From: Flexivirga aerilata
Lineage (GTDB): Bacteria > Actinomycetota > Actinomycetes > Actinomycetales > Dermatophilaceae
NCBI RefSeq assembly: GCF_013002715.1
Contig: NZ_JABENB010000002.1
Location: forward strand, 620,001-684,000
Direction: 5' to 3'
Length of the DNA stretch: 64,000 nucleotides
In this document: positions 24,684-38,894 of the stretch, piece after piece
Position numbering within the stretch: the stretch's first letter is position 1
How the letters are laid out: each line of letters starts with the position of its first letter
Position numbers and translations under genes: made by a program
The notes under the pieces: model-generated
Database searches by the model: none
What the model saw: the letters and a program-made list of their open reading frames with translations, nothing else
What the model was told of the DNA's origin: nothing

Positions 24684-26614
24684 GGCTGCAGCACTCTCCA
24701 GGCCAGGGCGAACCCGGCGAGTGCGGCGGTGACCTCGGCGTCGGAGACCTGCGGCCCGTCGCCCGCCCGGGGCACGAGGGTGACGACGACCCCGTCCTCA
24801 CCGAGCTCGGCACGGACATCCTCGATGCCGTCGTCGGCTCCGGCCGCCGCGAGCGCGGCGCGCACCGCACGACACGTGGCGTCGAGCCGCAGCGGGACCT
24901 TGTGGATCTTGCCGACCGACGTCATCGGTATGGCGTCGACGACGTACACCGCCTTGGGCGCCGCGGCCGGCTCCGGCACCCGGCCGGCGGCCCACGCGCG
25001 CAGGTCACCGCCGGCGACCGGCTCGGCGACGCTGACGTAGGCGACGGGCACCTCGCCCGAGTGCAGATCGGGCATCCCGACCGCGGCCGCACCGGTGACG
25101 GCGGGGTGGGCGAGCAACGCCTCCTCGACGACCGCGGGGTCGAGGTTGTGGCCGCCGCGCACGATGAGGTCCTTCGCACGTCCCACCAGGTGGATGAAGC
25201 CGTCGTCGTCGACCCGTGCGAGGTCACCGGTGTCGAGCCAGCCGTCGCGCAGCTTGCCGAGACCCTCCACGATCAGCCGTCCGCCCGGCTCGCGGCCGGT
25301 GACGTAGCCGGGGAACACCGTCGGGCCAGTGATGACGAGGGTGCCGCTGCTGCCCGCGGGCAGGTCGGTCCAGCTGCCGTCGTCCTCGATCCGCACGGTC
25401 TTCAAATCCTGATAGGGCAGCCGCTGGCCCACCGTGCCGGGCCGCGGGTGGGCGGCGAAGCCGCGCGCGCTCGCGCAGGTGGCCTCGGTGAGGCCGTACC
25501 CCTCGACGAGGGTGACGCCGGTGGTGGTCTCGAACGCCGAGCGCACACCCGGCGGCAGCGCAGCCGCGCCGACGATGGCGAACCGCATCGAGGAGATGTC
25601 GGCGTCGACCGGCACCCCGGCGAGGACGGCATACACGGTCGGCACGGCGCTCATCGTGCTGATCCGCCGGCTCTCGACGAGCTTCCAGAAGACGCCGTAG
25701 AGGTGCGGATCGCGGTAGCCGAGCGGGCCGGCCCACACCGACCGCTGCCCGCGCAGGATCGGCGCGAGCAGGGTGACCACGAGGGCGTTGACGTGGAACA
25801 ACGGGAGCGCGGCGAAAATCGACGCGTCGTCGTCGAGAGCGGTGTTGGCCGCGACGCTCCAGGCGTCGACCACCTCGTTGCGGTGGGTGTGCGCGGCGAG
25901 CTTGGGGTTGCCGGTGGTGCCGCCGGTGTGGAAGACCGACGCCAGGTCGTCAGCGTGCGGCGGCTCGCCGTCGAACCGGTCGGCGTGCGCCCGGGCGGCC
26001 TCCGCCGTGAGGTCGACGACGCGGGCGGTGTCGCCAACGTCGGCGGGTCGCCCCGCGTCGGCCGGCGCGGACGCGCCGCCCGTCGGGCCGAGGACGACGA
26101 CCGCGTCGACCGCGCCGCTCCTCGCGAGCGCGGCACCGTGCTCCCACGACGCGGCGTCGAGCTCGCGGGAGGCGACGACCACCACGCGGGCGCCCGTGAC
26201 GCCGAGGAGCCGGTGCACCTGCTGCTCCGAGAGCGCGCTGTTGACGGGCGCGGCGATGCCGGCGAGCTCGGCGGCCAGCGTCGCGGTCACGAGCTGGTCG
26301 CAGTTGGGGCTGATCAGCGCGACCGTGTCGTCGCGCCGTACGCCGAGTCCGTGGAGCACGTTGGCGACGCGGTGCACGTCGGCCAGCAGTTCGGCATACG
26401 TCCGCGACACCGTCTGCTGCCAGTGCTCGGCGTCGGGCATGACGCTGACGGCCGTGCGCTGCGGCCACTGCGCTGCGGACCGCACGAGTGCTTCGTAGGT
26501 CGTGGCGGGCAGGTCGCGCTGTGCGAGCGGGATCTGCTCGATCTGCGCCAGGTCGTCGGGTGCGTCGTACCGCGCCGGCCACGCGGTGCGCCCGGTCAGG
26601 ACGGGGCCCGCCAT
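24680..26614 (-). CDS. Acyl-CoA synthetase (AMP-forming)
   Basis: 644 aa from ATG 26614, which shares a base with the previous stop (TGATG). The ANL motifs are complete: FHTGGTTGNPKLAAH (ATP loop), EGYGLTEAT, GWLDTGDLARVDDDGFI with RAKDLIVRGGHN, and the catalytic Lys in SVGKIHKVPL. It activates a carboxylic acid as its CoA thioester. In this operon it may activate an aromatic acid or the aliphatic acid left after ring cleavage. Confidence 0.87.
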   Translation of the reverse strand: MAGPVLTGRTAWPARYDAPDDLAQIEQIPLAQRDLPATTYEALVRSAAQWPQRTAVSVMPDAEHWQQTVSRTYAELLADVHRVANVLHGLGVRRDDTVALISPNCDQLVTATLAAELAGIAAPVNSALSEQQVHRLLGVTGARVVVVASRELDAASWEHGAALARSGAVDAVVVLGPTGGASAPADAGRPADVGDTARVVDLTAEAARAHADRFDGEPPHADDLASVFHTGGTTGNPKLAAHTHRNEVVDAWSVAANTALDDDASIFAALPLFHVNALVVTLLAPILRGQRSVWAGPLGYRDPHLYGVFWKLVESRRISTMSAVPTVYAVLAGVPVDADISSMRFAIVGAAALPPGVRSAFETTTGVTLVEGYGLTEATCASARGFAAHPRPGTVGQRLPYQDLKTVRIEDDGSWTDLPAGSSGTLVITGPTVFPGYVTGREPGGRLIVEGLGKLRDGWLDTGDLARVDDDGFIHLVGRAKDLIVRGGHNLDPAVVEEALLAHPAVTGAAAVGMPDLHSGEVPVAYVSVAEPVAGGDLRAWAAGRVPEPAAAPKAVYVVDAIPMTSVGKIHKVPLRLDATCRAVRAALAAAGADDGIEDVRAELGEDGVVVTLVPRAGDGPQVSDAEVTAALAGFALAWRVLQP

Positions 26615-27552
26615 CACGAGTGCCTGACCGTGGTCCGCTGCGTGCCCAGGTCGAGTGCGCCGTCCGGGGTGGCGATCGTGAGCTCGAGGCGGTCGCCGTC
26701 CTGGAGATAGTGGGGATTCTTGGCCTGGGACTGGAAGAACTTGCGCCACTTCAGCGCCGGCGGCAGCAGCGCGCCGATCAGCTCGACCGGCCGCGGCGGT
26801 GCCTTGAGCGCGGTGCCGCCCGGCGTGCCCGTCAGCAGCAGGTCGCCGGTGTCCAGGCGCTGGAAGCGAGCCAGTGCGGCGAGGGCCTGCTCGGGGCTGT
26901 AGATCATGTCGAGGCAGGTGCTGTCCTGGCGCACCTGGCCGTCGACCGTGAGGCGCAGCCGCAGCTCGGGCAGCCGCCGGAGCTCGGCGTCGTCGAGCAG
27001 CAACAGGACCGGGCCGACCGGGGTGAAGGTCGGGTAGGACTTGGCCTCGAAGAACTGGGTCTTGGGCAACTGGACGTCACGGGCCGAGACGTCGTTGGTG
27101 ATGACGAGGCCGGCCACGTGACGGGTCCAGGTGGACGAGGTGACGGTGTCACCGACCGTGAGGGGCTCGCCGATGACCAGGCCGAGCTCGATCTCGTAGT
27201 CGAGGAAGCGGACGTGCTCCGGCCGGACGATGTCGTCGGTGGGGCCGCTGATCGAGCCGGACGTCTTGCGGAAGAAGGTCAACGGCACCGTCTCGGGGTT
27301 CATGCCCGAGTCCTCGACGTGGCTGACGTAGTTGGTCATCTGCGCGACGACCCGGCATGGGGCCGTGACGGGGGAGACCAGGTCGAGGCTCGCGACGGCG
27401 GTCCCGCCGGGGCCGGCCGCGGCGGCGTCGACCGCGGCGCGGTCGGCGAGAAGCTGCCCGGTCGTGACCGCGTCGGTCGCGACCCGGGCGGCGGTGCCGT
27501 CGGCGGTGAGCACCCACCAGGCGTCGGCGGTGCGCAGAACGGAGGTAGTCAT
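26614..27552 (-). CDS. Fumarylacetoacetate hydrolase (FAH) family protein
   Basis: 312 aa. The C-terminal FAH domain has the metal-binding acidic set in FLDYEIELGLVIG and TNDVSARDVQ, followed by KSYPTFTPVGP and LLTGTPGG. Members hydrolyse C-C bonds of acylpyruvates, or hydrate or decarboxylate oxo acids in meta-cleavage routes. Lying next to an extradiol-type dioxygenase gene, it probably handles the ring-cleavage product. The stop touches the CoA-ligase start and the start overlaps the dioxygenase stop. Confidence 0.85.
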   Translation of the reverse strand: MTTSVLRTADAWWVLTADGTAARVATDAVTTGQLLADRAAVDAAAAGPGGTAVASLDLVSPVTAPCRVVAQMTNYVSHVEDSGMNPETVPLTFFRKTSGSISGPTDDIVRPEHVRFLDYEIELGLVIGEPLTVGDTVTSSTWTRHVAGLVITNDVSARDVQLPKTQFFEAKSYPTFTPVGPVLLLLDDAELRRLPELRLRLTVDGQVRQDSTCLDMIYSPEQALAALARFQRLDTGDLLLTGTPGGTALKAPPRPVELIGALLPPALKWRKFFQSQAKNPHYLQDGDRLELTIATPDGALDLGTQRTTVRHS

Positions 27553-28712
27553 GAGGAGGCAACTTTCAGCAGGCCGCGGAGGCGTTCGAGGTCGAACTCG
27601 TTGTCCTCGCGCAGGGATCGGATGATGGAACGGGCCTCGGCGAGCGCATCCTTGCCCGGAGCGACACCGAGGAAGTCGGGGGTGGCAGGCGGCCCCCACT
27701 GGGCCAGGCCGGAGGCGGACATCGGGGCCCAGCCCGGAGTGAGGTGGCAGTCGAACAGGTCGCCGTCGGCGAAATGTTCGACGAGGAAGCCGTCCGGGTC
27801 GCGCCAGTAGTCGAACAGCTGGCTGCCCTGGATGTGCCGGCCGATGCCCCAGGACCGCCGGTAGCCCTCGTCCAGCAGGTACTGCCCACCCGCGGCCATC
27901 GCGTCGAGGTCGGCGACCTGGTAGGCCGAGTGCACGTAACGGTTGGAGGGGCCGAGGTTCATCGCGAGCGTGTGGTGGTCGGCCGGTTCGTCGCCCCGGT
28001 CGCAGCGGATGAAGCTCATGGTCGGCCCGCGGTGCCGCTGCCCCTCGTAATAGAGGAAGTCGCTGACGATCAGCCCGAGGTTCTCGAGGTACCAGTCGAG
28101 CGCCTCGCCATACCGGGTCGACTGCAGCACCACGTGCCCGAGTCGTTGCACCCTGGCCGGTGCGCGCAGCGGCCGTTGCGTGGCGTTGACGCGGCGAGCC
28201 TCGCCGCCGAGGTTGAGCGCCAAGGGCGCCTGGGCAGGGAGCCGGGGGAGTTCGTGGGTGTCGGCGACGACCCGGACGGGCAGACCGCTCGGGTCGACCA
28301 GCTCGACCCCGACGCCGCCGATCGACTCCGGCAGCGGTCGCACCGTGGTCCGGTGCGCAGCGGCCAGCCGGAGCAGGTCGGTGGCGTCTGCGGCGCGGAA
28401 GGTCGGGCCGAGGAACCGGCTCTCGCGGCGTTTGCGGACGATCACGCACGGGCTGCCCGGATCGGTGCCGCGCAGCTGGAGTTCGTCGGGCGATGTCGCG
28501 GCCGTCACGAAGCCGAAGGCGTGCGCGAAGCGCTCGGCCGCGGCCAGGTCGGGCTTGGCGAACTCGAGCCAGGCGAGGTCGCGCACCTTGATGACCGGGT
28601 TGCGGTGCCGGCCGGGGTGTTCGCCGGGCAGGCCGCCCTGTTCGGAGTGGACGCCGCTGTGCGGGTCGTGAGCCTGGTGCCCGGGGAGTTCGCGCGGGGT
28701 CGTCGTCGTCAT
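27549..28712 (-). CDS. Extradiol-type ring-cleavage dioxygenase, VOC superfamily
   Basis: 387 aa with two VOC repeats (about residues 40-150 and 190-310). In the C-terminal repeat RLGHVVLQSTRYGEAL supplies the first His, DHHTLAMNLG the second and GFLVEHFADGD the Glu, the iron-binding triad of type I extradiol enzymes. The first 35 residues are His/Gly/Pro-rich and probably disordered. It likely opens a catecholic ring at the meta position. It is the first gene of the operon, with a palindromic operator 42 bp upstream. Confidence 0.82.
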   Translation of the reverse strand: MTTTTPRELPGHQAHDPHSGVHSEQGGLPGEHPGRHRNPVIKVRDLAWLEFAKPDLAAAERFAHAFGFVTAATSPDELQLRGTDPGSPCVIVRKRRESRFLGPTFRAADATDLLRLAAAHRTTVRPLPESIGGVGVELVDPSGLPVRVVADTHELPRLPAQAPLALNLGGEARRVNATQRPLRAPARVQRLGHVVLQSTRYGEALDWYLENLGLIVSDFLYYEGQRHRGPTMSFIRCDRGDEPADHHTLAMNLGPSNRYVHSAYQVADLDAMAAGGQYLLDEGYRRSWGIGRHIQGSQLFDYWRDPDGFLVEHFADGDLFDCHLTPGWAPMSASGLAQWGPPATPDFLGVAPGKDALAEARSIIRSLREDNEFDLERLRGLLKVASS

Positions 28713-28753
28713 CGCGCCACCACCTTCCTTACGAAGATGACTGTATCATCAAA

Positions 28754-28771
28754 ACTGATCATATGATCAGT
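28754..28771. promoter_or_regulatory. Palindromic operator upstream of the catabolic operon (TetR site 1)
   Basis: ACTGATCATATGATCAGT is a perfect 18-bp palindrome, 42 bp upstream of the dioxygenase start and between it and the tetR gene. The same core, ACTGATCANATGATCA, recurs at 29486 and 38898. A TetR-family dimer is the natural reader. Confidence 0.75.
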
Positions 28772-28853
28772 GAATCGGGTATGGCGATTCTGCCGATTCG
28801 ACGATTACGGCGATCCCGGCGATTGCGTCGCCGACCGGGGTGGTGTGCGTTCC

Positions 28854-29474
28854 TTACGCCTGGGGCGCCGGGGGAAGCTCGATCGCGCTGATGCGTTCGG
28901 CCTCGCGCCGGTCCAGGCCGAGCATGAGCAGCACCCGCCGGGCGAGGTCGGTCGCGGTCGACTCCGCGTCGAGGTCCTCGTCCTCGAGCAGCAGTTGCGC
29001 GGTGCCGAGGAACGCCCCGCCCACCATCATGAACAGGTGCTGCGGGTCTCCGACGAATCGTCCCTGCGCCACGCCGGCCGTCAGGTCCGCCAGCGCTCCC
29101 TGCCGGAACCCGCGGTCGATCGTCAGGATCCGGGGGCCGACCGCCAGTGCCAGCCGTGCGACCAGCGGCTGGGATCGCACCAGCACCAGCGCGAACCGGT
29201 AGCTGGTGGCGAACAACTCCGCGGGCTCGGTGAGTCCGACGGTCGCCACCGCGCGCCACTCGTCGAACATGTCGAGCGTCGCCAGCACGGCGGCGTCGAA
29301 CAGGTCCTCCTTGGATGCGAAGTGGTTGTAGAACGACCCGAAGCCGACATCGGCCCGGTCGGTGATCTCCCGGATCGTGGCGGCCGAGTTGCCCTCGGCC
29401 AGGAACTCCTGCGCCGATCGGATGAGGGCGGCCCGGGTGTGCGCCTTACGGCGATCGAGGCGTGAGGACTCCAT
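28854..29474 (-). CDS. TetR-family transcriptional regulator
   Basis: 206 aa. The N-terminal HTH reads TRAALIRSAQEFLAEG, then IREITDRADVGFGSFYNHF with KEDLFDAAV, the typical TetR layout. The C-terminal ligand domain is not diagnostic. It lies upstream of, and in the same direction as, the aromatic operon. The palindrome core ACTGATCANATGATCA occurs in front of its own start and in front of the operon, so it probably represses both and responds to a pathway compound. Confidence 0.88.
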   Translation of the reverse strand: MESSRLDRRKAHTRAALIRSAQEFLAEGNSAATIREITDRADVGFGSFYNHFASKEDLFDAAVLATLDMFDEWRAVATVGLTEPAELFATSYRFALVLVRSQPLVARLALAVGPRILTIDRGFRQGALADLTAGVAQGRFVGDPQHLFMMVGGAFLGTAQLLLEDEDLDAESTATDLARRVLLMLGLDRREAERISAIELPPAPQA

Positions 29475-29582: not shown

Positions 29583-31004
29583 TCACACCGTGCCGGAAGC
29601 TGCTCGTCGACTCCACGTCACTGGCATCGGGCGCTTCCCGAGGCGGCGGACGAGCATCTGGGCCGCCTGGCTGATCCCTTCGGCGAAGGTCGGAAACGCG
29701 AATTCCATCTCAGCGACCGCCTCGATGCGCATGCCCGCAGCCATGCTCGTCGCGGCGACCTGGATGACCTCGGCGGAGTACTCGCCGAGGACGTGGGCGC
29801 CGACGATGCGGCGCTCTTGCGTGTCGATGATCAGCTTGCAGAAGCCGTTGGGGCGACCGTCGGCGATAGGCCGCAGGAGATCGTCGTAGCGAGCGACCGC
29901 CACCTCGCAGGGGTAGCGTTGCCGAGCTTGTTCCTCGGTCAGGCCGACCATGCCGTACTCCGGGTCGGTGAAGCTGCCGACGGGGACGACCTCGTGGGTG
30001 ACGCCTCGCGTCGGTCCTAGCACGGCGTTCTCCGCCGCGACGCGGCCCTCGTGGACGGCGCTCGAGACGAGCATGCTGTTCCCGTCGACGTCGCCGCAGG
30101 CGAAGATGTGCGGCGCCGAGGACTGCAGGTGCTCGTCGACGACGACATAGCCGCGATCGGTGACGACCCCGGCAGCCGCCGCGTCGACGAGGTCGGCGTT
30201 GCCTGGCCAGCCGACTGCGGTAATGGTGCGCTGGACGTCGACGACCCTTGGCGTCCCGTCGCGCAGTGACAGGCAGACCTGCATGCCACCGGGTCGAGCG
30301 TCGAGCTGGTCCACGGAGGCGCCGGTCACGACCGTCATGCCACGTGCCGTGAAGGCCGACGCGAGGCCGACGGAGATCGCGTGATCGGCCCGCGGAAGCA
30401 GTCGCGGCGCCGCGCCGATCAGGGTGTCCTGGCAGCCGAAGCCGTGCAGGATCGAGGCGAGCTGGCAGCCGGTGTCGGACGTGCCGACGATGCAGGCACT
30501 CGTGGGGATGCGGGTGATCGCGCGAGCGTCTTCGTAGGTGATCGCGAGCTCGGCCCCGGGCACGTCCAACCGCCCAGGGCGGCCGCCGATGGCGAGGATG
30601 ATCCGGTCGGCGCTCCAGGTTCGACCGTCGTCTGCGGCGATCGTGTGAGTCCCGACGAAGCGGAGGTCGCCGGTGTTTTCCGCGAGGGAGACCGCACCGG
30701 CCCGCAGGTGGTCGGCGAGACGCTTGCCCTCGTAGGCGTAACGCGCGACGCGATCGGCGTTGGCCAACGCTGCACCGACGTCGATCTCCGGACGGGGACC
30801 GGTCAGGCCGAATGCCGGCCACGACTCCCAGTCGCGGGCCAGCCGGGCAGCACGAGCCAGGGCCCGCACCGGGGCCGGTCCCCGGCTGAGCGCGGTCCCG
30901 CCGACCTGGTGACGCTCGACGAGGGTCACCTCCGCACCGAGCTCCGCCGCGTGCAGGGCCGCCGTCAACCCGGCCGGCCCGCCACCGACGACGAGGACAC
31001 GCAT
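29583..31004 (-). CDS. NAD(P)/FAD-dependent oxidoreductase lacking the redox disulfide
   Basis: 473 aa from ATG 31004. It has the full class I pyridine nucleotide-disulfide reductase layout: the FAD motif VLVVGGGPAGLTAALHAAE, a second FAD block FACGDVDGNSMLVSSA, and a dimerisation domain (FTDPEYGMVGLTEEQA). The CxxxxC redox pair is replaced (GGTALSRGPAPVRA), and the catalytic His near the C-terminus is Phe (FAFPTFAEGI). It cannot act as a disulfide reductase and may be a transhydrogenase-like or diaphorase enzyme. It is the last gene of the DyP cluster, 14 bp after the TPR gene. Confidence 0.8.
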   Translation of the reverse strand: MRVLVVGGGPAGLTAALHAAELGAEVTLVERHQVGGTALSRGPAPVRALARAARLARDWESWPAFGLTGPRPEIDVGAALANADRVARYAYEGKRLADHLRAGAVSLAENTGDLRFVGTHTIAADDGRTWSADRIILAIGGRPGRLDVPGAELAITYEDARAITRIPTSACIVGTSDTGCQLASILHGFGCQDTLIGAAPRLLPRADHAISVGLASAFTARGMTVVTGASVDQLDARPGGMQVCLSLRDGTPRVVDVQRTITAVGWPGNADLVDAAAAGVVTDRGYVVVDEHLQSSAPHIFACGDVDGNSMLVSSAVHEGRVAAENAVLGPTRGVTHEVVPVGSFTDPEYGMVGLTEEQARQRYPCEVAVARYDDLLRPIADGRPNGFCKLIIDTQERRIVGAHVLGEYSAEVIQVAATSMAAGMRIEAVAEMEFAFPTFAEGISQAAQMLVRRLGKRPMPVTWSRRAASGTV

Positions 31005-31018
31005 GCGCCCGCGCCGCC

Positions 31019-32089
31019 TCAGCGCACGTCGGGCGACGACGCGCCGACGGCGGCGCGGGCGCGCTCGACCACGGCGCGGGCGCGGGGCGTCTGGCGCATG
31101 ACCAGCGTCCACTGGGCGAGGCGCAGCGCCCGGCCGGGATCGCCACCTGCTCCCAGCCAGAAGTCCCCGGCGTGGTCGGCGTAAGCCTCCGGGTGGAGCC
31201 GCACGAGCTCGTCATACCGGCGCTTCGCCCGATCCCGCCAAACCCGGGCCCGGTCATGCTGCCCGAGGCCCCGCAGGGCGAGGGCAAGGTGCGCGGCGTA
31301 CTCCGGGTCGTCGCTCGTCTCCGCCACCGGGCGCAGGTAGCCGGCGGCTGCAGCGGCATCACCGCGGAGCAGCTCGATCTCCGCGAGGTGACCGGTGGCG
31401 GGCGCGTAGGCCGGGACTCGGCGCCGCGCCGCGTCGAATGCCTCGTGTGCAGCCGTGAGGTCTCCCTCCCGCATCCACATCACCCCACGCCGGAAGTCCA
31501 GCTGAGCCAGGGGGAAGGGCGAGACACCACGGTGCGCGTCGTGGGCCGCGGCGAAGGCCTGCACGGCTTCGGCGATGCTGCCGCGCTCGGCATACAGGAC
31601 GGCTTGCGCGCTGAGGCTGGCGAAGTCCGACTGGTGCGAAGCGGCGTTCTGCAGCAGGAGTTCAGCTTCCTCGTAGCAGCCGACCGCCTGCAGGATCGCT
31701 GACCGGTCCGCATCGAGGCCGTCGACGGACGGTTCGGCTCGGTGCGCAGCGTCGAGGTCGGACCAGGCGTCGGCGAACCGGTGCAGGGTCGCCCTGGTCC
31801 TGGCTCTTGCCGACAGGGCGATGGCGCTGTGCGGCGCGGTGGCGACCATCCGGTCGGCGACCTGGAAGGCCAGCTCGTAGTCGGCGACGCAGCCGAGCAG
31901 GTGCCCCCGCAGGGTCAGCAGATCGACGAGAGCGGCTTGCTGCTCGAGGACCCGGTGGGCAGCCGAGTCCGGTGACCCTGCCGGGAGTGCCTGCCCCGCC
32001 AGCATGTCGACCTGCGCGGTGAGGTTGGCCAGAGCGAGCGTGCCGTCCGTGGTCCGTACGTCGCCTCGGTCCATGACCGTCGCGGTCAC
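31019..32089 (-). CDS. TPR-repeat protein
   Basis: 356 aa, GTG start at 32089 overlapping the DUF4331 stop. It is almost wholly helical, with successive TPR-like pairs (for example ADYELAFQVADRMVATAP, IALSARARTRATLHRFADAW, GDLTAAHEAFDAARRR, AAHLALALRGLGQHDRA). There is no signal peptide. TPR proteins act as scaffolds. The overlap with DUF4331 suggests the two products work together. Confidence 0.75.
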   Translation of the reverse strand: MTATVMDRGDVRTTDGTLALANLTAQVDMLAGQALPAGSPDSAAHRVLEQQAALVDLLTLRGHLLGCVADYELAFQVADRMVATAPHSAIALSARARTRATLHRFADAWSDLDAAHRAEPSVDGLDADRSAILQAVGCYEEAELLLQNAASHQSDFASLSAQAVLYAERGSIAEAVQAFAAAHDAHRGVSPFPLAQLDFRRGVMWMREGDLTAAHEAFDAARRRVPAYAPATGHLAEIELLRGDAAAAAGYLRPVAETSDDPEYAAHLALALRGLGQHDRARVWRDRAKRRYDELVRLHPEAYADHAGDFWLGAGGDPGRALRLAQWTLVMRQTPRARAVVERARAAVGASSPDVR

Positions 32090-33249
32090 GGCGCCGGCTC
32101 TTCAGCGGCCGGCGGCAACAGGGAGCGGAGGACCGTCATCGCGTCCGGGGGCGTCGGGTTGGGGGCGACCAGGTAGGGGAAGGTGTGGGTCGCGGGCCTC
32201 GTCGCCTGGTCGACTCCGTCGCTGATCCGCTCACCGTCGACGCCGTTGACCAGGAGCGTGTAGAGGGTGTCCACGATGTCGTCGTTGGGCGCTCGGCCAC
32301 CGCAGGTCGTGTGTTCCCGCCCAACGAGTGCGGCGCGCTCGATCTCGAAGCTGCTGCTCTCGGAGAACGGCTTGGAGGTGTCGACGACGAGAAAGTCGGC
32401 GAAGAGCAGGTCGGTCAGGGGGTGCGTGCCGTGCTCGCCCGGCGGCCAGACGATGTCGCCGGCAAGGCGGTCGAAGAAAGCCAGGTTGGCGTCGAAGCGG
32501 GCACGGTAGGCGCCCTCGTAGTCCGGTCGGACGGCGAAGGCGTCCTCCTCGTTGTAGAGGTCCCGGATCTCCAGGTCGCGGTTGACCTGGTCGAACTTCT
32601 TGCTCGCGAGGATGACGTTCTTGATCTCCGGACGCCCCATGCGCTCCAGCCGTGTTGGTCGGCCACCCGCGATCACCGTCTCGCCGACCACCCCGAGCAG
32701 CGGACCGGCGTCGGGTCCGAAGACTGCTGCGGGGTCGATCTCGATGACGATGGCCAGGACGTTCGCGCCCTGCAGGGCATTGGACGCGCCCTCGGGCTGG
32801 AAGGCGAGCTGCTCGATGGCGTCGGTCGCGAGGACGCCCTTGAGGTCGATGAAGAACGGGTCGAGGCGGGGGCCGGCGAAGATCCGCACCCCGCCGGTCT
32901 CGGTCGGCTCGTCGACCGGGAACCGGAGCTGCTCCCCGCCGGGCAGCGTGCACGTGCCGGTCTGCGCCGACGGCTCGCTGCCCGCGCTCGCGCCCGGAGC
33001 GTCGAAGGTGACGTCGAGGGTGTATTCCTGGTCACCGACGGAGAAGCCCTGCCCGTCCCGTGCGACGGGTCGTACTCGGAAGCGGTAGACGAGCGCGTCC
33101 GAGAAGCGCGCCGCCGGGGCGGCCGCAGGGAACACATCGAGCGCCAGGACGAGACGACCGGGGCGGTCCGGGCTGGGGAAGGTGTAGACGTCCGCCACGT
33201 CAGAGGCTGGGTCGATGAGAATCCGTGGTCCGGAGAAGTGGTCAGCCAT
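32086..33249 (-). CDS. DUF4331 family protein
   Basis: 387 aa from ATG 33249. The N-terminus ADHFSGPRILIDPASDVADVYTF, ALDVFPAAAP, FAGPRLDPFFIDLKGV and GRPEIKNVILA are marks of DUF4331, a mostly beta family of unknown function. No signal peptide is seen, so it appears cytosolic, whereas many DUF4331 proteins are exported. It lies between the first DyP gene and the TPR gene in the same operon. Confidence 0.8.
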   Translation of the reverse strand: MADHFSGPRILIDPASDVADVYTFPSPDRPGRLVLALDVFPAAAPAARFSDALVYRFRVRPVARDGQGFSVGDQEYTLDVTFDAPGASAGSEPSAQTGTCTLPGGEQLRFPVDEPTETGGVRIFAGPRLDPFFIDLKGVLATDAIEQLAFQPEGASNALQGANVLAIVIEIDPAAVFGPDAGPLLGVVGETVIAGGRPTRLERMGRPEIKNVILASKKFDQVNRDLEIRDLYNEEDAFAVRPDYEGAYRARFDANLAFFDRLAGDIVWPPGEHGTHPLTDLLFADFLVVDTSKPFSESSSFEIERAALVGREHTTCGGRAPNDDIVDTLYTLLVNGVDGERISDGVDQATRPATHTFPYLVAPNPTPPDAMTVLRSLLPPAAEEPAP

Positions 33250-33284
33250 GGTGGGCTCCTTAGGCGGGTGAATGGGTTGTTGGG

Positions 33285-34613
33285 TCAGGTGTCGAGGTCC
33301 GCGATCCAACGCAGAGCGCTCAGGCTCGGAAGGAAGCAGTACTCGCCGCCACGGTTGACGACGAACGGTGGCAGTCCTTGGAAGCGGCGGCGGATCGGGG
33401 TGCGTGGAACGGTGAACTGTCCGTCGTCATTCGCGCCCACGAGCGGGTCTTTCTCGACGGGGACGCCGATGAACTTGCCATCGTTGACCCACTGCGCCTG
33501 GACGAACTCGAATTGCCGGGCCAGATGAGCGCCGATGAAGGCGAAGACGATGCCGCGGTCGGCGCCGTCATCCTCGTAGACACCCTGGGGCAGCGGTGGG
33601 CCGTAGTTGGTGCCGCGCCGGATCATCCGATGCAGCCGCACCTCGCCGGTGATGATCGCGTCGCGAGGGTTCATTCGCCGGGCGTGCGAGCCGAGCGGAC
33701 ACTTCAGGCCGCGCGGGTCGTCGCCGTACTGGAAGTCGTTGTTCCGGTGCGGGTCGGCCCCGAGCTCCGGGTCGTCCCGGTCGGGCGACAAAGGAAGTGG
33801 GGCGCCACTGGGCCAGCGGCCGACGACCTTGGCCGCCAGCAGCTCCTCGTCGGCTCGGTCGGCGGCACGGTCGCGCAGGTACTGACGGAAATCGGCGACT
33901 CGGGTGTGCAGCTTGCGGAAGGCGGCATAGGTGCCGCCTCGGCCCAGAATGTCGGGCTGCGGCACCGCCGCGATGCTGCCGGTCTCGTCTTCGAATCCCA
34001 GCAGGAACTCGCCCGCCTTCAACCGCTCTTCGCGGGAGTTGGTGCAGGGTATGGCGGCGCCCTCGATCGCCGGCTGGCCGATGCCGTCCTTGAAGCCGAA
34101 CGGCTCCCGCTCATTGGGCGCAGCAAAGACCTCCTGCTGCCAGATGGTCGCCACCCCGGGCAGATCTCGCAAGGCGTCGCGAGCCAAGAGCAGGATCGCC
34201 TCCAATCGGGGGGCATCGGGAGCCAAGCCGACCAGCATGAGGTGGACGTCTTTGGATCCCAAGGGACCCTCCCAGTTCGCTGGTGAGCTGTCGCCGACAT
34301 CGCCGAGCTCCGCCGCGCGAGCGGCCATGCCCTGCTGGAACTCGGGGGAGAAGGTCGCCAGAGAGTCCTCCGGCACGCCGATCGCGCGCAGGCCTTCGAA
34401 GCTGAACCCGATGGCGAGCGAGACCTGACGCTCGGCGTCGAAGGAAGCGACGGAGTCGAGCATCGGGAGCATCCGCTGCACGAGCGCTCGCGCCTGCCTG
34501 CGGTCGTCGATGCGCAACGCCAGATACGTGCCGGCATACGGCGTTGGGCGCGGCTGGAGTACCGCCGCTTGAACGTCGGCAAGATTCGGGACACTGCCGT
34601 GGTCCGTACTCAT
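33285..34613 (-). CDS. DyP-type peroxidase, copy 1
   Basis: 442 aa from ATG 34613. The distal catalytic motif is FGFKDGIGQPA (GxxDG; Asp near residue 171). The proximal heme ligand region is CPLGSHARRMNPRD, and the distal Arg lies in HRMIRRGTNYG. The final part resembles long B/C-type DyPs with FVQAQWVND. There is no Tat signal and no visible encapsulin-targeting tail, so it is probably a free cytosolic heme peroxidase. DyPs oxidise dyes, phenols and lignin-like aromatics with H2O2. It follows the small partner gene at 34702-35322. Confidence 0.9.
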   Translation of the reverse strand: MSTDHGSVPNLADVQAAVLQPRPTPYAGTYLALRIDDRRQARALVQRMLPMLDSVASFDAERQVSLAIGFSFEGLRAIGVPEDSLATFSPEFQQGMAARAAELGDVGDSSPANWEGPLGSKDVHLMLVGLAPDAPRLEAILLLARDALRDLPGVATIWQQEVFAAPNEREPFGFKDGIGQPAIEGAAIPCTNSREERLKAGEFLLGFEDETGSIAAVPQPDILGRGGTYAAFRKLHTRVADFRQYLRDRAADRADEELLAAKVVGRWPSGAPLPLSPDRDDPELGADPHRNNDFQYGDDPRGLKCPLGSHARRMNPRDAIITGEVRLHRMIRRGTNYGPPLPQGVYEDDGADRGIVFAFIGAHLARQFEFVQAQWVNDGKFIGVPVEKDPLVGANDDGQFTVPRTPIRRRFQGLPPFVVNRGGEYCFLPSLSALRWIADLDT

Positions 34614-34701
34614 GGTGTCGGGCAACCTCCAACACGGGTGTCGTGCACAGCGGGTCTACGGAAGGGGTGGGGTGCCCGCCCCCGCCTGCACGTGGACTGG
34701 A

Positions 34702-35322
34702 TCAGGAAGAGGCCAGGTCGAGTAGGGGCTTCAGCGCGGGGTGCGAGAGTGCCTCCTCGGCCGCGGGGTTGTCGAGCACCTGCTGGAACGCCTGGTCCAA
34801 CAGCTGCCCCTTGATGATCTGGGTCATCGTCACCGCGCCCAGAGGGTTGAAGTAGACCGCGGCCGGAGTCTGCCTGGACTGGATGATCTTTTTCAGGCCG
34901 GCGCTGGCTCTGCGGGCATTCGTCTCGAAGTCCGGGTGGTCCTTGTCCAGTGCGTCGATGCCGCCAGACTCCTCCAGCCACTGGACGATGACGTCGGCCT
35001 CGGTGGTGTGCTGCATCCAGTCAAAGAAGTGCGGGGCGCCGACCACCAGCAGGGCGTCTTCCAGGTAGGGGTCCCATTCGGTCTCGAAGGTCGTGGCCCA
35101 CAACAATTGGCGGCCTTCGTCGAAGATGACGTGGCGGGAGTCGCGCAGCCCGGTCCGGATGGTCTCGGCGGGGTCGGAGGTGCGCAGCACCTCGACGAAG
35201 CGGTCCAACGCGGCCCGCAGTTGCTCTTCGTGACCCGGCTTGACGCCGAAGAACGCCGCAAGCTCGGAAACGACGCCGTCGCTCGTGCCCTTGCCGGAGT
35301 TTTTCTCGATGGTCGATGTCAT
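34702..35322 (-). CDS. DyP-partner protein 1, unknown family (alpha/beta-barrel-like)
   Basis: 206 aa from ATG 35322 (AAGGAC upstream). I cannot name a family. It shares a layout with the 202-aa product at 36739-37347: SEL..(6)..KPG near the N-terminus, a strand pair ending LLWATTFETEWDPYLEDA, and a closing segment (IIQSRQTPAAVYF). These look like ferredoxin-type alpha/beta halves as in dimeric alpha-beta barrels, the fold DyP itself uses. It lies just upstream of a DyP gene, so it may be a partner or substrate-delivery protein. Confidence 0.55.
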   Translation of the reverse strand: MTSTIEKNSGKGTSDGVVSELAAFFGVKPGHEEQLRAALDRFVEVLRTSDPAETIRTGLRDSRHVIFDEGRQLLWATTFETEWDPYLEDALLVVGAPHFFDWMQHTTEADVIVQWLEESGGIDALDKDHPDFETNARRASAGLKKIIQSRQTPAAVYFNPLGAVTMTQIIKGQLLDQAFQQVLDNPAAEEALSHPALKPLLDLASS

Positions 35323-35383
35323 GAATGTGTCCTTCAACTGTTTCGCGAACTGTGCTGATCGAGACGTGTGTATGGCTGGCTGG

Positions 35384-36727
35384 TCAAGTCGATGGCTCTC
35401 GGCTCAGCCAGGCGATGGCCGAAAGGCTCGGCATGAAGAGGTACTCCCCGCCGAGGAGGGTGTTGAAGCTCTGGATGCCCTGCACGCGGCGGGGAGGGGT
35501 GCCGGGCACGGTGAAGTGGGCGCCGTGGTCCTGGCGGGAGATGAGCGGGTCCTTCTCCTTGTCGAGTCCGACGAAGTTGCCGGAGTTGACCCACTCGCTC
35601 TGCAGGAACTCGACGGTGTCGACGGCTCGCGCGCTGATCGCGATGAAGTCCAGGCCGCGGCTCTTGCCGTCGTCGCGGGTCACGTCCTCGGGGACGGGGT
35701 CGCCGTAGGACGTGCCCCGGCGGATGATCCGCCGGATGCGCGTGTCGGTGAGGATCGCGAGCTTCGCGTCCCGGGGGTTCATCCGCCGGGTGTGCGATCC
35801 GAGCGGAGTGCGCAGCCCGCGCGGGTCCCCGCTGTAGGTGAAGTCGTTCAGGCGGGTCGGGTCGTCGCCGAGCGCCGGGTCGTCCCGGTCGGGTGAGAGA
35901 GCGAGCGGGGCGCCGCTGCGCCACCGGCCCACCAGCTTGGCACCGAGCAGATCTCGCTCCTGCGCGGTGCCGGCGTGGTCGTGCAGGAAACGATTGAACG
36001 CCGCAACGTGGGAGTGGTACTTGCGGAAGACCACGAAGGTGCCGTTGCGGCCGAGCACGTCCGGACTGGGCATCGGGAGCGGCTGGCCGGTCTCGCTGGG
36101 GTAGCCCAGCACGAACTCGCCCGGCCGGATGGGCCGCCCGTCGCCGGGCATCGTCTCGGCGCCACTGCCTTCGACGGCCGGCTGCGCGAAGCCGTCGCGG
36201 TAGCCGAAGACGTTGAAGCCGGTCGCGCCGAAGTCCTGATGCGACAGCAGCTGAACGCCCGGCACCTGGTCCAGTTCACGCGCGTAGCCATCGACCGCCG
36301 CCTGCCACGCCTGCTCGCTGTCGGCATACACGCTGATCGCGAGGTGGGCGCGGCCGGTGCCGAACGGGAACTCCCAGTGCTCCGGCGCATTGGGGCCGGT
36401 GTCGCGCAGCCGCTCCGCCCGGGCCGCCATCCCCGCGCGGAAGTTCGCCGGGAATGACGCCAGGCTGCTCTCGGGGACGCCGAGAGCCACCAGGCCGGGA
36501 TAGCTGATCGCCAGCATGGTCCACGCTGGCACCGGCTCGTCCCATCGGGCCGCGGAGGTGATCCGGGGCGAGAGCCGCCGCAGCAACTCGCGGCCCGATG
36601 CCGGATCGGCGATCTCGAGGATCGCGTGGGTGCCGAAGTAGGGCTCGGGCCGCGAACGCAGGACGGCGGCCTGGATGTCGTCCAGCTCGAGCGTCGGTCG
36701 TCGGGTCAGGCGGCGGAACAGATCCAC
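35384..36727 (-). CDS. DyP-type peroxidase, copy 2
   Basis: 447 aa from GTG 36727, 11 bp after the partner-2 gene. Distal motif FGYRDGFAQPA, proximal heme region TPLGSHTRRMNPRD and distal IRRIIRRGTSYGD are complete. It is clearly related to copy 1 (SGAPLALSPDRDDP; DVLGRNGTFVVFRK) but diverged throughout, so this is an old duplication and not a recent one. No export signal or encapsulin tail is seen. Confidence 0.9.
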   Translation of the reverse strand: MDLFRRLTRRPTLELDDIQAAVLRSRPEPYFGTHAILEIADPASGRELLRRLSPRITSAARWDEPVPAWTMLAISYPGLVALGVPESSLASFPANFRAGMAARAERLRDTGPNAPEHWEFPFGTGRAHLAISVYADSEQAWQAAVDGYARELDQVPGVQLLSHQDFGATGFNVFGYRDGFAQPAVEGSGAETMPGDGRPIRPGEFVLGYPSETGQPLPMPSPDVLGRNGTFVVFRKYHSHVAAFNRFLHDHAGTAQERDLLGAKLVGRWRSGAPLALSPDRDDPALGDDPTRLNDFTYSGDPRGLRTPLGSHTRRMNPRDAKLAILTDTRIRRIIRRGTSYGDPVPEDVTRDDGKSRGLDFIAISARAVDTVEFLQSEWVNSGNFVGLDKEKDPLISRQDHGAHFTVPGTPPRRVQGIQSFNTLLGGEYLFMPSLSAIAWLSREPST

Positions 36728-36738
36728 GGGCGCGAACT

Positions 36739-37347
36739 TCAGTTGAGCTCGGTCAGGAAGCTCTGCACCGTGCGGTCGAGTCGCTTGAGACGGGTGGCGC
36801 CGGCGACAGTGAGGTTGGGGTGAGCGACGAACCACGCCTCGGCGGGCAGCTGATATTGGACGATGAAGTCCTTCACCTCCGGCGAGTGGATGCCCGGCCA
36901 GCCCTCGACGTTGCCGAAGAGGTAGTCCATCATCTCGGGGATCTTCGTGGCGAAGTCGTCGATGTAGGGGTCCCACTCGCCGTCGTACGCCGTCGCGAAC
37001 AGCAGCTTGGTGTCGTCGTCGAGGAACACGAAGCGCATGTTGTGCAGGGTGCCGACATCGCCGGCGCCGGCGAGATTGCCGTCGACCAGCTTGAAGAACT
37101 TGCGCAGGCGCTCCGCGCCACCGGGTTTCAACGGCATGATCGCGGTCAACTCGGACACCTCGCCGCTCTTGGCACCGACCCGGCCGGCCGTGGTGACGGC
37201 GTGCTCGGCCACTTCCTCCTTGTCGGCGAGGAGTTCGCCGACCCGCACCTTGAGCGCGACCTTTGCGTCGTCGATGACGGCGTCGACCTTCTGCCGGACG
37301 GTGGCGGGCAGGCCCTGGAATCGCTGCTCGAGCGACGACTGACTCAT
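36739..37347 (-). CDS. DyP-partner protein 2, paralogue of partner 1
   Basis: 202 aa from ATG 37347. A helical N-terminus (about residues 1-55, KEEVAEHAVTTAGRVGAKS) is followed by the shared core: VSELTAIMPLKPGGAERLRKF, RFVFLDDDTKLLFATAYDG with EWDPYIDDF, and FIVQYQLPAEAWFVAHPN. The motif EWDPY(L/I)(E/D)D is common to both partners. It is the first gene after the regulator and stands 11 bp before the second DyP gene. Function unknown; the repeated pairing with a DyP gene is the main clue. Confidence 0.55.
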   Translation of the reverse strand: MSQSSLEQRFQGLPATVRQKVDAVIDDAKVALKVRVGELLADKEEVAEHAVTTAGRVGAKSGEVSELTAIMPLKPGGAERLRKFFKLVDGNLAGAGDVGTLHNMRFVFLDDDTKLLFATAYDGEWDPYIDDFATKIPEMMDYLFGNVEGWPGIHSPEVKDFIVQYQLPAEAWFVAHPNLTVAGATRLKRLDRTVQSFLTELN

Positions 37348-37477
37348 CTCGTACTCCTTCGGTGTCGGGCGCGCGGGCGTCGGCCCGGCGCGGTGGAATC
37401 CCCACCGCATTCATTGCAACTCCGGGGCAGCCCGGAAGGCTTGGCCCCGGGTCCAAGGTTGTGCGCCGTGCATTGGT

Positions 37478-37509
37478 GTCTGGTGCAATCACCGTCTGGT
37501 GCAATCACC
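37478..37509. repeat. 16-bp tandem direct repeat in front of the DyP gene set
   Basis: GTCTGGTGCAATCACC occurs twice in immediate succession (37478-37493, 37494-37509), about 130 bp upstream of the partner-2 start and just past the pucR stop. A related TGCATTGG precedes it. Being in the only long gap of the cluster, it is a candidate binding site for the PucR-type protein encoded next to it. Confidence 0.6.
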
Positions 37510-37532
37510 CGGCCGCTGCGCGGGGTGGCCCC

Positions 37533-38894
37533 TCAGGCATCCGCGTTGGTGACGGCGAACTCGTCGCCGAACTCCTCGACGAGCGCGAGTGCGGCCTGCA
37601 GTTGCATGCGCCGGTCGCCCACCCCACGTCCGCGCAGGGCCTCGGCCCGCCCGACCCGGTAGGCGACGGTGTTGCGCGCCACGTGCAGCGCCCCGGCTGC
37701 CGCGTTGAGGCTGCGTTCGTTGTCCAGATAGCACTTCAGCGTCGCCCGGAGGACACCGGCCGCCTCGCCCGGCGCGGCGAGGTCACCGAGCTCCCGGCGT
37801 ACGAACTGGCGCGCGACGTCGTCACGGTGCGTCAGCATCGTCAGCATGTCGACGTCGCCGTAGTCCCACACCCGCCGGGGCTGCTTGGACGCCATGCCGA
37901 TCCGGGCCGCCTCCAGCGCCTGGCCGTGGCTGGTCCGGAAGCCCGACACTCCCGCTCCGGGCAGGCCCGCGGCGACCTGAACGCCGACGGTGGGCTCGTA
38001 GGAGCCGATGCTCGGAGGCGGGGCATTGCCGCGGACGGTCGAACCCCATGCCCACACGCGGCGCCGACCGATCGGCAGGACCAGGGCGGCGGAGTGTCCC
38101 GACGCGCGCAGCACCTGGGCCGCCGTCGACTCCAGCACGCCCGGGCCGGGCTGCGCCGCGTCCGCGACCCAGACGACGAGCGCGGTGTGGCGTCGGGTCA
38201 GGTCGTACTCGAGCACCCTCGTCGCCCGCTCCGACGAGACCTCCGCGCCGCTCAGGATGTCGTCGACCAACTCCATGCGCACCGCCGCCGAGGTCGTCAG
38301 CCAGGCCGCCTGCACCCGGCTGAACTCCGCCGCCATCCGGGACGACAGCAGGTCGGTGATGGCGAAGAGCCGCTCGGAGATCAGGCGCAGCGCGGCGAAT
38401 CTCTCCTCGGGAGGCAGGCTGTGCGAAGCAGCCTCGACGAACTGGTGGTGGGCGTAGGTGTGGGCGACCTGGATGCTGCGCAGGATGTGCTCGATGCCGA
38501 CGCCGCGGATGACCGCCTCGGCCGGCCCCGCGAAGACCTCGGGGGAGAGGACGGCGTCGAGGTCGAAGTTCTCCCTGGCCAGGGCGGCCACGGTCTGGAC
38601 CGCGACCGCCTCGCACCCCTTGCGCATCTCCTGGACGAACCCGTCGACGCCGAGCTCGGGGATCACCGCGAGGATGCTCTGCGCCATGCCGCCCGCCACC
38701 TCGACCGCCCAGCCGATAGGCCCGGGCCCGACCCGGTCGACGAGCTCGGCGACACAGGTACGCGACAGCACGGCGTGGCTGATCGCGTCGGGCTCGACCG
38801 GCCGCGCGGCCCGGATCCAGGTCCCGTTCTCCGCCCCGGCCGCCCGACAAGGGTCGTCCCCTGTGTGAGTCCTCGCGTCAACCATGACCACCAT
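37533..38894 (-). CDS. PucR-family transcriptional regulator heading the DyP cluster
   Basis: 453 aa from ATG 38894 (450 aa from the ATG at 38885). The C-terminus is the PucR-type HTH (NERSLNAAAGALHVARNTVAYRVG). The middle part is GGDEF-like and the N-terminal half helical. Neither start has a clear ribosome site, and the operator at 38898 sits 3 bp before the first ATG, so the message may be leaderless. It is transcribed toward the DyP genes and is a likely local activator, itself placed under TetR control by the operator. Confidence 0.82.
   Translation of the reverse strand: MVVMVDARTHTGDDPCRAAGAENGTWIRAARPVEPDAISHAVLSRTCVAELVDRVGPGPIGWAVEVAGGMAQSILAVIPELGVDGFVQEMRKGCEAVAVQTVAALARENFDLDAVLSPEVFAGPAEAVIRGVGIEHILRSIQVAHTYAHHQFVEAASHSLPPEERFAALRLISERLFAITDLLSSRMAAEFSRVQAAWLTTSAAVRMELVDDILSGAEVSSERATRVLEYDLTRRHTALVVWVADAAQPGPGVLESTAAQVLRASGHSAALVLPIGRRRVWAWGSTVRGNAPPPSIGSYEPTVGVQVAAGLPGAGVSGFRTSHGQALEAARIGMASKQPRRVWDYGDVDMLTMLTHRDDVARQFVRRELGDLAAPGEAAGVLRATLKCYLDNERSLNAAAGALHVARNTVAYRVGRAEALRGRGVGDRRMQLQAALALVEEFGDEFAVTNADA

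Follow-up and report, generated by a model that had tools for sequence, protein, structure and literature searches.

The DyP-type peroxidases of the encapsulin-cargo and EfeUOB systems belong to other DyP classes than the enzymes described below, and their partners are unrelated. They are likewise encoded with dedicated partner genes (PMC8197335). DrDyP from Deinococcus radiodurans (DRA0145, class C/V) falls in the same clade as the present DyPs; its heme is six-coordinate and low-spin at pH 7.5, the enzyme shows no activity at physiological pH, and its authors ask which event could activate it (PMC10820274). DrDyP was studied alone, and the main text makes no mention of an operon, genomic context or neighbors (PMC10820274). 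The paper on SaDyP1 from Streptomyces mentions no operon, gene cluster, or upstream or adjacent genes. Within the main texts of the open-licence literature, we found no account of a DyP gene neighborhood, none linking a DyP-type peroxidase with DUF4331, oleate hydratase, sulfite oxidase plus enoyl-CoA hydratase, or a catalase-family operon, and none on DUF4331 itself or on a mycobacterial catalase-like protein.

We analyzed a window of 64,000 nucleotides from Flexivirga aerilata (contig NZ_JABENB010000002.1, positions 620,001 to 684,000). All eight genes of the original prediction are present in the order and on the strand it gave: on the minus strand, a PucR-family regulator, partner 2 (P2), DyP2, partner 1 (P1), DyP1, a DUF4331 protein, a TPR-like protein and an FAD oxidoreductase. 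Starts were corrected for the FAD gene (near 31004), DUF4331 (33249), DyP2 (near 36727, GTG) and PucR (near 38894), and a longer start at 37410 is possible for P2. The P2 and DyP2 genes are 11 bases apart, and those encoding DUF4331 and TPR overlap by 4 bases. Because scans of the region gave no clear sites (no sigma-70-type promoter, and 2 terminator-like sites versus 2.3 in shuffles), we delimit the operon by gene spacing. The genes just downstream, also on the minus strand, encode a TetR regulator, a glyoxalase/dioxygenase-family protein, an FAA hydrolase, an AMP-binding ligase and a PF01494 FAD monooxygenase.

We read the region, with a probability of roughly 55%, as two modules of an undescribed multicomponent family built on a class V (C) DyP clade and activated by the partner proteins. 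Conservation, adjacency, matched ancestry, catalytic motifs and the predicted partner fold argue for this reading.

DyP1 (33285..34625, minus strand) and DyP2 (35384..36727, minus strand) share 47% identity and match TIGR01413 with E values of 2.4e-31 and 8.8e-26, the latter below the curated cut-off. The columns for the distal Asp of the GXXDG motif (GFKDG in DyP1, GYRDG in DyP2), the proximal His and the distal Arg are invariant in 102/102 DyPs of the clade, both window proteins included. The last Gly of GXXDG is kept in 89/102; both window DyPs have it, whereas DrDyP carries a Met there. By catalytic motif, both are class V (C) DyP-type peroxidases, with putative heme binding and peroxidase activity. 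In a search with DyP1 alone, all 20 PDB sequences matched are DyPs, which we take to belong to classes V, C and D. The class V/D structures Alr1585 (5c2i), DyP2 (4g2c), 7d8m and fungal DyP (2d3q) share the DyP fold and catalytic residues but match DyP1 much less closely (E 5e-24 to 3e-40) than 8re3 does (E 6e-123).

The original prediction had noted the absence of encapsulin, a Tat signal and an iron-uptake set. This absence is unsurprising, since class C DyPs are predicted to be cytoplasmic (PMC10820274). Inspection of the N-termini by eye revealed neither a signal peptide nor a twin-arginine signal, and a search for encapsulin (PF04454) found none in this genome, while the same search was positive in 3 of 14 control genomes. 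An encapsulin-cargo DyP was rejected for lack of a shell gene, and the predicted cytosolic location is plausible.

The two partners, P1 (34702..35337, minus strand) and P2 (36739..37347, minus strand, with an N-terminal extension), are homologous (31% over 114 aa, E 2e-13), as had been proposed. Both match a partner profile, built with both included, at E values of 1.6e-55 and 7.4e-47, respectively. The original prediction would have failed had homologous partners and DyPs been mostly unlinked in other genomes; linkage was found instead. Of 80 related genome loci, 76 have a partner no more than 2.6 kb from the DyP, as do 17/17 opened plasmid loci; in the four loci without one (L039, L055, L077 and L104) the sequence available ahead of the DyP match is shorter than 2.4 kb. 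Across 97 loci (1.59 Mb) the profile gave 101 matches. Of these, 98 lie less than 2 kb from a DyP, every one of them on the DyP's strand, so the pairing is beyond chance. Same-strand adjacency occurs twice in the window. No partner was found at 31 control loci of other DyP classes, where flanks were only 1.5 kb, and one is also missing beside certain remoter class V DyPs despite ample flanks (L034, L171, L172 and L176). Two rounds of partner-first searches each returned 5 of 296 genomes, with this genome in both, although the second used an alignment of mostly DyP-linked partners and could under-detect unlinked kin; the two rounds together gave 9 distinct genomes, all of which have the partner next to a DyP. 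Partner and DyP distances are correlated (r 0.66, reached in 0 of 2000 permutations), for which shared vertical descent may be the source. In 72 of the 76 partner-bearing genome loci a single third gene is present, drawn from an exchangeable set that encodes a mini-catalase, DUF4331 or an unnamed protein of ~338 aa. The widespread module of partner, DyP and, usually, a third protein is apparently undescribed, and the finding gives DUF4331, the unnamed 338-aa family and the mini-catalase a shared biochemical setting.

The pairing of partner with DyP is therefore real and conserved, as predicted, but the window does not hold one repeated module. Judged by the nearest relatives of both proteins, P2–DyP2 belongs to a mini-catalase lineage, with all six nearest relatives of P2 being of that type, and P1–DyP1 to a DUF4331–TPR lineage. 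Local tandem duplication of a single module was rejected because the two pairs differ in the nearest relatives of both proteins. The P1–DyP1 module has its third component, the DUF4331 protein (32086..33249, minus strand; PF14224, E 6e-29), directly following DyP1. No third component belongs to P2–DyP2: the window contains neither a mini-catalase nor the 338-aa protein, its sole DUF4331 goes with DyP1, and elsewhere in the genome only a distant catalase match was found. The AlphaFold2 model of DUF4331, of moderate confidence (pLDDT 73), has no credible fold match in the PDB, and sequence searches found no significant solved relative of DUF4331 or of the 338-aa protein. The best solved match of the mini-catalase component is the mini-catalase-related protein 3e4w (E 2.1e-39), the place of which DUF4331 occupies in the window. 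The mini-catalase has been reported to lack catalase activity.

Downstream of DUF4331, the TPR-like protein (31019..32089, minus strand) gave only weak TPR matches, all below Pfam cut-offs. TPR-like relatives occur in 6 of 97 loci, in all of which DUF4331 also occurs and the partner, DyP, DUF4331 and TPR stand in one cluster (L035, L036, L090, L124, L125 and L129). These six loci bear out the proposal of one functional system insofar as DUF4331 and TPR accompany P1–DyP1-type pairs. That proposal does not extend to PucR (37533..38894, minus strand; PF13556, PF17853), which recurs in 0 of 108 related loci; neither PucR nor the downstream aromatic-type genes, which lack conservation, were accepted as parts of the module.

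P2–DyP2 could be a relic that lost its mini-catalase and is carried along by the intact DUF4331-type module. A mini-catalase lineage with no mini-catalase in the window would fit, as would a genome of the same family that keeps mini-catalase, partner and DyP together (L018); the P2 and DyP2 frames are nevertheless open, with catalytic motifs and the 11-base spacing kept, and we consider a relic unlikely. About equally unlikely, in our estimate, is that the partner is a heme-delivery or stress protein merely coexpressed with the DyP, with no direct action on it. The AlphaFold2 model of P1 (pLDDT 88) gave ferredoxin-like Foldseek matches, the top eight at probability 1.00 with a best E value of 3.2e-3 (none below 0.001), and the partner is modelled as a predicted ferredoxin-like alpha+beta domain, as in DyPs, followed in P1 by C-terminal helices; neither P1 nor P2 matched Pfam ABM or NIPSNAP, and sequence searches yielded no significant solved relative. 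The superfamily to which this predicted fold would belong, the dimeric alpha+beta barrels (ABM/NIPSNAP-like), has several heme-binding members (PMC4835899), and one His is kept in 96/102 partners. That residue is an Arg in P1, however, and no His is invariant, on which ground a His-ligated heme protein was rejected; the residues invariant among 26 partners are D89, Y91 and D94. DRA0145 and DRA0146 of D. radiodurans are both reported as raised following UVC/vacuum (PMC5731708), in line with a stress role, but mere coexpression sits poorly with a partner closely linked to one DyP clade and matched to it in lineage.

We favor direct action of the partner on its DyP, with physical binding, activation and the substrate being inferred. 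Each DyP gene is accompanied by one for a dedicated alpha+beta partner and usually by one for an exchangeable third protein; here P2–DyP2, of mini-catalase lineage but without the catalase, stands upstream of P1–DyP1 with its DUF4331 and TPR, followed by the flavoprotein. The partner would bind its own DyP and displace an inhibitory distal ligand or shape the substrate entrance, and a low-spin DyP would thereby gain activity in the cytosol at neutral pH, with DUF4331 and TPR positioning or processing the substrate. In D. radiodurans a partner gene (E 5.3e-47) lies directly upstream of a DyP that we take to be DrDyP. This DyP is 45.3% identical to DyP1 by tblastn; its locus (L123) falls in DyP2's clade and has a mini-catalase instead of DUF4331. 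We propose that the partner may be the missing activating subunit of the D. radiodurans DyP. The physiological function of DyPs is not settled, and a partner upstream of the presumed DrDyP makes the activation question testable.

The modules might handle lipid-derived peroxides or unsaturated fatty acids, with DyP, partner and mini-catalase converting fatty-acid hydroperoxides and DUF4331 or the 338-aa protein taking the catalase-like step elsewhere. Some conserved neighbors point weakly to fatty-acid chemistry: by profile, 3-hydroxyacyl-CoA dehydrogenase occurs in 6 of 17 opened plasmid loci, D. radiodurans among them, and oleate hydratase in 4 of 17. Of the 80 genome loci, 20 carry enoyl-CoA hydratase (ECH), which in 17 cases belongs to the string partner–DUF4331–DyP–ECH–SOX. 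The mini-catalase alignment keeps R44, H47, R331 and Y335 invariant; H47 and Y335 presumably correspond to the distal histidine and the proximal tyrosine of catalases. Yet the window has no such fatty-acid gene, the 80 genome loci have neither 3-hydroxyacyl-CoA dehydrogenase nor oleate hydratase, and plasmid loci L133–L135, near-identical in spacing, could represent a single mobile segment in several copies, leaving a lipid substrate somewhat doubtful. Less probable still is what the original prediction envisaged, a cytosolic peroxidase assembly whose substrates are phenolic or lignin-derived. The downstream TetR-to-PF01494 set on the same strand resembles aromatic catabolism, but these genes recur in only 0 to 4 of 108 related loci (E 1e-15) and are therefore local, so that conserved neighbors lend the aromatic substrate no support.

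In the two-module reading that we prefer, the FAD pyridine-nucleotide oxidoreductase (29583..31004, minus strand) would supply electrons from NAD(P)H or recycle product. A fuller version, which we hold tentatively and at less than even odds, makes the DyP clade the catalytic subunit of a multicomponent peroxidase in which a barrel partner would switch a low-spin heme to activity at neutral pH and a third subunit would set the chemistry; the operon would combine two lineages, and the flavoprotein would have traded its disulfide for a feeding role. The protein shares its domains with lipoamide dehydrogenase and MerA but lacks both of their redox cysteines, and none of its scores in the 25 families listed reaches the curated cut-off. 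As had been predicted, the CxxxxC of FAD disulfide reductases is absent: the window protein has GGTALSRGPAPVRAL where unlinked relatives carry this motif. The cysteine pair is missing in 14/14 DyP-linked FAD proteins examined and kept in 11/11 unlinked relatives, the family being found away from DyPs as well.

On the minus strand of the window, a PucR gene (38894-37533) is followed by the genes for the small partner protein P2 (37347-36739), the class V (C) DyP-type peroxidase DyP2 (36727-35384), the second partner P1 (35337-34702), DyP1 (34625-33285), a DUF4331 (PF14224) protein (33249-32086), a TPR-like protein (32089-31019), and a flavoprotein without a CxxxxC motif, here called FAD (31004-29583). 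These starts leave gaps of 11, 46, 76, 35, −4, and 14 bases between successive genes from P2 to FAD. A scan found no promoter-like site and no excess of terminator-like sites over chance. DyP1 and DyP2 are 47% identical, and P1 and P2 31% identical over 114 residues. The genome encodes two more DyPs outside the window (G000:C2:425766-426788 and G000:C1:1383886-1384782); these belong to other classes and have no partner within 1.5 kb.

The original prediction proposed looking for the same gene order elsewhere, and the partner–DyP pairing indeed recurs. A DyP-alignment scan of one genome per species (84,980 species) confirmed at least 498 relatives, and the analysis used the best 80 (57 Actinomycetota, 8 Pseudomonadota, 6 Myxococcota, 4 Chloroflexota, 2 Acidobacteriota, 2 Melainabacteria, and 1 Vulcanimicrobiota). 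Of these best 80, 76 have a partner no more than 2.6 kb from the DyP; the loci without one (L039, L055, L077, and L104) have 375, 361, 1,727, and 2,366 bases, respectively, before the DyP match. All 17 plasmid loci examined, out of 69 plasmid records, also carry it. The 97 loci scanned with the partner profile (1.59 Mb) gave 101 matches, 98 of them within 2 kb of a DyP and on its strand. Partner-first searches agreed: P1 matched 5 of 296 genomes of the class and a 26-partner alignment 5 of 296 genomes of the phylum, own genome included each time, and in all nine distinct genomes the partner adjoins a clade DyP. Of the two, the alignment search offers less independent evidence, because its sequences came mostly from DyP-linked loci. 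With DyP1 as query, seven of 296 phylum genomes matched at E 1e-40, two of them (G403 and G468) without a partner; in G403 the 3.3-kb contig stops within the DyP gene. As a separate observation, a Streptomyces plasmid (L124:2534-9879) holds two identical partner copies that are separated by ∼6.6 kb and flank an MFS transporter gene, and three loci with more distant class V DyPs (L032, L175, and L177) have two tandem or overlapping partner matches upstream.

The partner was found at none of 31 other-class DyP loci, for which the flanks were only 1.5 kb. As a further control, we inspected the 13 lowest-scoring DyP places in 60 genomes of the class. A partner was present at eight of them (both window DyPs, L015, L030, L173, L174, L175, and L177) and absent from five (L171, L172, L176, L178, and L179); of these five, L178 and L179 gave either a 1e-4 match or none to the clade DyP profile. 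Because the control loci and some of the lowest-scoring DyPs have no partner, the partner is the mark of one large class V DyP clade, not of all class V DyPs. The four partner-less DyPs included in the tree (L034, L171, L172, and L176) group together on the same side of one branch (support 96/76), but each of them is itself long-branched.

Neither P1 nor P2 matched a Pfam family at its cut-off. An AlphaFold2 model of the partner from 26 sequences (pLDDT 88) gave as top Foldseek matches antibiotic-biosynthesis-monooxygenase-like and NIPSNAP-like ferredoxin-fold proteins, with a probability of 1.00 at the top and a best E of only 3.2e-3. The alpha+beta barrel superfamily has been described as including DyPs (PMC4835899). 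Columns R41, D89, Y91, D94, and L188 (P1 numbering) are invariant in the 26 sequences; in the wider set of 102 partners, Y91 and D94 never vary, and 96 have His in a column occupied by Arg in P1. Partner and DyP distances correlate (r 0.66, 77 dereplicated pairs; none of 2,000 permutations was as high, the top being 0.11), which is consistent with co-inheritance, not proof of contact.

Neighbour clustering and profile searches revealed that each partner–DyP pair is usually accompanied by one of three third genes: a mini-catalase (CAT), a ∼338-residue family (U338), or DUF4331. Exactly one kind lies within 2.6 kb of the DyP in 76 of the best 80 loci (CAT 29, U338 26, DUF4331 21), and 72 of these 76 also have a partner. 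L102 has both CAT and U338 nearby, and L063, L090, and L097 have no third gene within that distance, with DUF4331 3 kb away in L090 and U338 on the other strand in L097. CAT is on the opposite strand in L057, L061, and L062. The slot between partner and DyP can hold DUF4331, U338, or CAT, the last in two Mycobacterium MAGs (L054 and L058). The 17 plasmid loci carry CAT in 11, DUF4331 in 3, and U338 in 3. On the DyP tree the third-gene labels are clustered, yet switch several times (13 changes for six groups together versus a shuffled mean of 41).

Several arrangements stood out individually. In L102:7418-15516, a complete partner-U338-DyP module stands back to back with a complete CAT-DyP-partner module. 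In L037:10367-12322 and 17 further loci, from Actinomycetota, Chloroflexota, and Acidobacteriota, DUF4331, DyP, enoyl-CoA hydratase, and a sulfite-oxidase-like molybdoenzyme follow one fixed order; 17 of these 18 also have the partner, and the remaining locus is cut by a contig end. A Sinorhizobium plasmid (L129:1890-11299) has partner-DyP-NIPSNAP-second partner-like protein-DUF4331-TPR-cytochrome c, with hemA upstream. U338 (L044:8018-9034 and 27 further loci; 14 aligned) is 60 to 71% identical across phyla to the first aligned member, had no Pfam, NCBIfam, or significant PDB match, and is possibly metal-binding, given its many invariant His and Asp residues (PHHDV, LPHY).

The two pairs in the window belong to different lineages. 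The six nearest relatives of DyP2, and likewise of P2, are all of CAT type, and those of DyP1 and P1 all of DUF4331 type. DyP2 falls within a CAT clade (support 99/91 and 100/99), and DyP1 groups with Streptomyces loci of the order partner-DyP-DUF4331-TPR (100/99). In another genome from this family (G273, locus L018), the arrangement is CAT-partner-DyP. Profile searches found neither CAT nor U338 in the window; the sole catalase match in the genome is distant and outside the window, and U338 had no match there in a search that had no positive control.

All 102 partner-bearing DyPs of the clade retain the catalytic Asp, the proximal His, and the distal Arg. Among solved structures, those closest to DyP1 are 8re3 and 8re2, titled "Peroxidase, putative," which we take to be the D. 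radiodurans enzyme (DrDyP, DRA0145; locus L123). The D. radiodurans plasmid record reads 3-hydroxyacyl-CoA dehydrogenase, hypothetical protein, DyP, catalase family protein; the hypothetical protein scores E 5.3e-47 against the partner profile, and the DyP carries GYKDM. A Met variant of this motif is described for DrDyP, which is reported as six-coordinate low-spin at pH 7.5 and as inactive at physiological pH; its activity on ABTS peaks at pH 2.8 and nearly vanishes above pH 4 (PMC10820274). DRA0146, taken from its locus number to be the neighbouring catalase-family protein, is reported to lack catalase activity (PMC7247583), and both proteins are reported as raised after UVC/vacuum (PMC5731708). 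A multi-subunit enzyme could look like this: a pair of heme-family proteins, each seemingly idle by itself, encoded next to an unstudied third.

As for substrate, the phenolic or lignin-derived compounds first proposed gained no backing from conserved neighbours, as the downstream aromatic-type genes of the window are kept with the module in only 0 to 4 of 108 related loci. Those genes (23133-29474, minus strand) encode an FAD monooxygenase, AMP-binding ligase, FAA hydrolase, glyoxalase/dioxygenase-family protein, and TetR, and look like an aromatic-catabolism set. Genes of fatty-acid chemistry do turn up repeatedly in some lineages: among the 17 plasmid loci, 6 carry 3-hydroxyacyl-CoA dehydrogenase and 4 carry oleate hydratase, and among the best 80 genome loci, 20 carry enoyl-CoA hydratase and 18 the molybdoenzyme; none of the four had a match in the window with these profiles. 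Compared with lignin, a lipid or some other hydrophobic compound is the substrate that we weakly prefer. The DyPs belong to an established family. Within the literature searched, the partner family and three-way module appear undescribed: no open-licence paper was found on DUF4331, alone or with a peroxidase, or on the further gene combinations looked up, and the main text of a DyP review that describes the EfeUOB operon does not contain the word "partner" (PMC8197335).

Both CxxxxC cysteines are absent from all 14 DyP-linked FAD homologues (window plus 13 loci; two sequence types), the L077 fragment being left out. The pair is kept in 11 of 11 close unlinked relatives, which have neither DyP nor partner within 1.5 kb; these are the best matches among 20 other matching genomes of 296, and all are relatives of the first sequence type. 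At what we take to be the catalytic-His position of disulfide reductases, neither the linked nor the unlinked homologues have His. Judged from the missing cysteines and His, the FAD protein may act simply as an electron donor that depends on NAD(P)H. Because it is present in 14 of the 80 loci (the best 80 of at least 498), we regard it as an accessory part.
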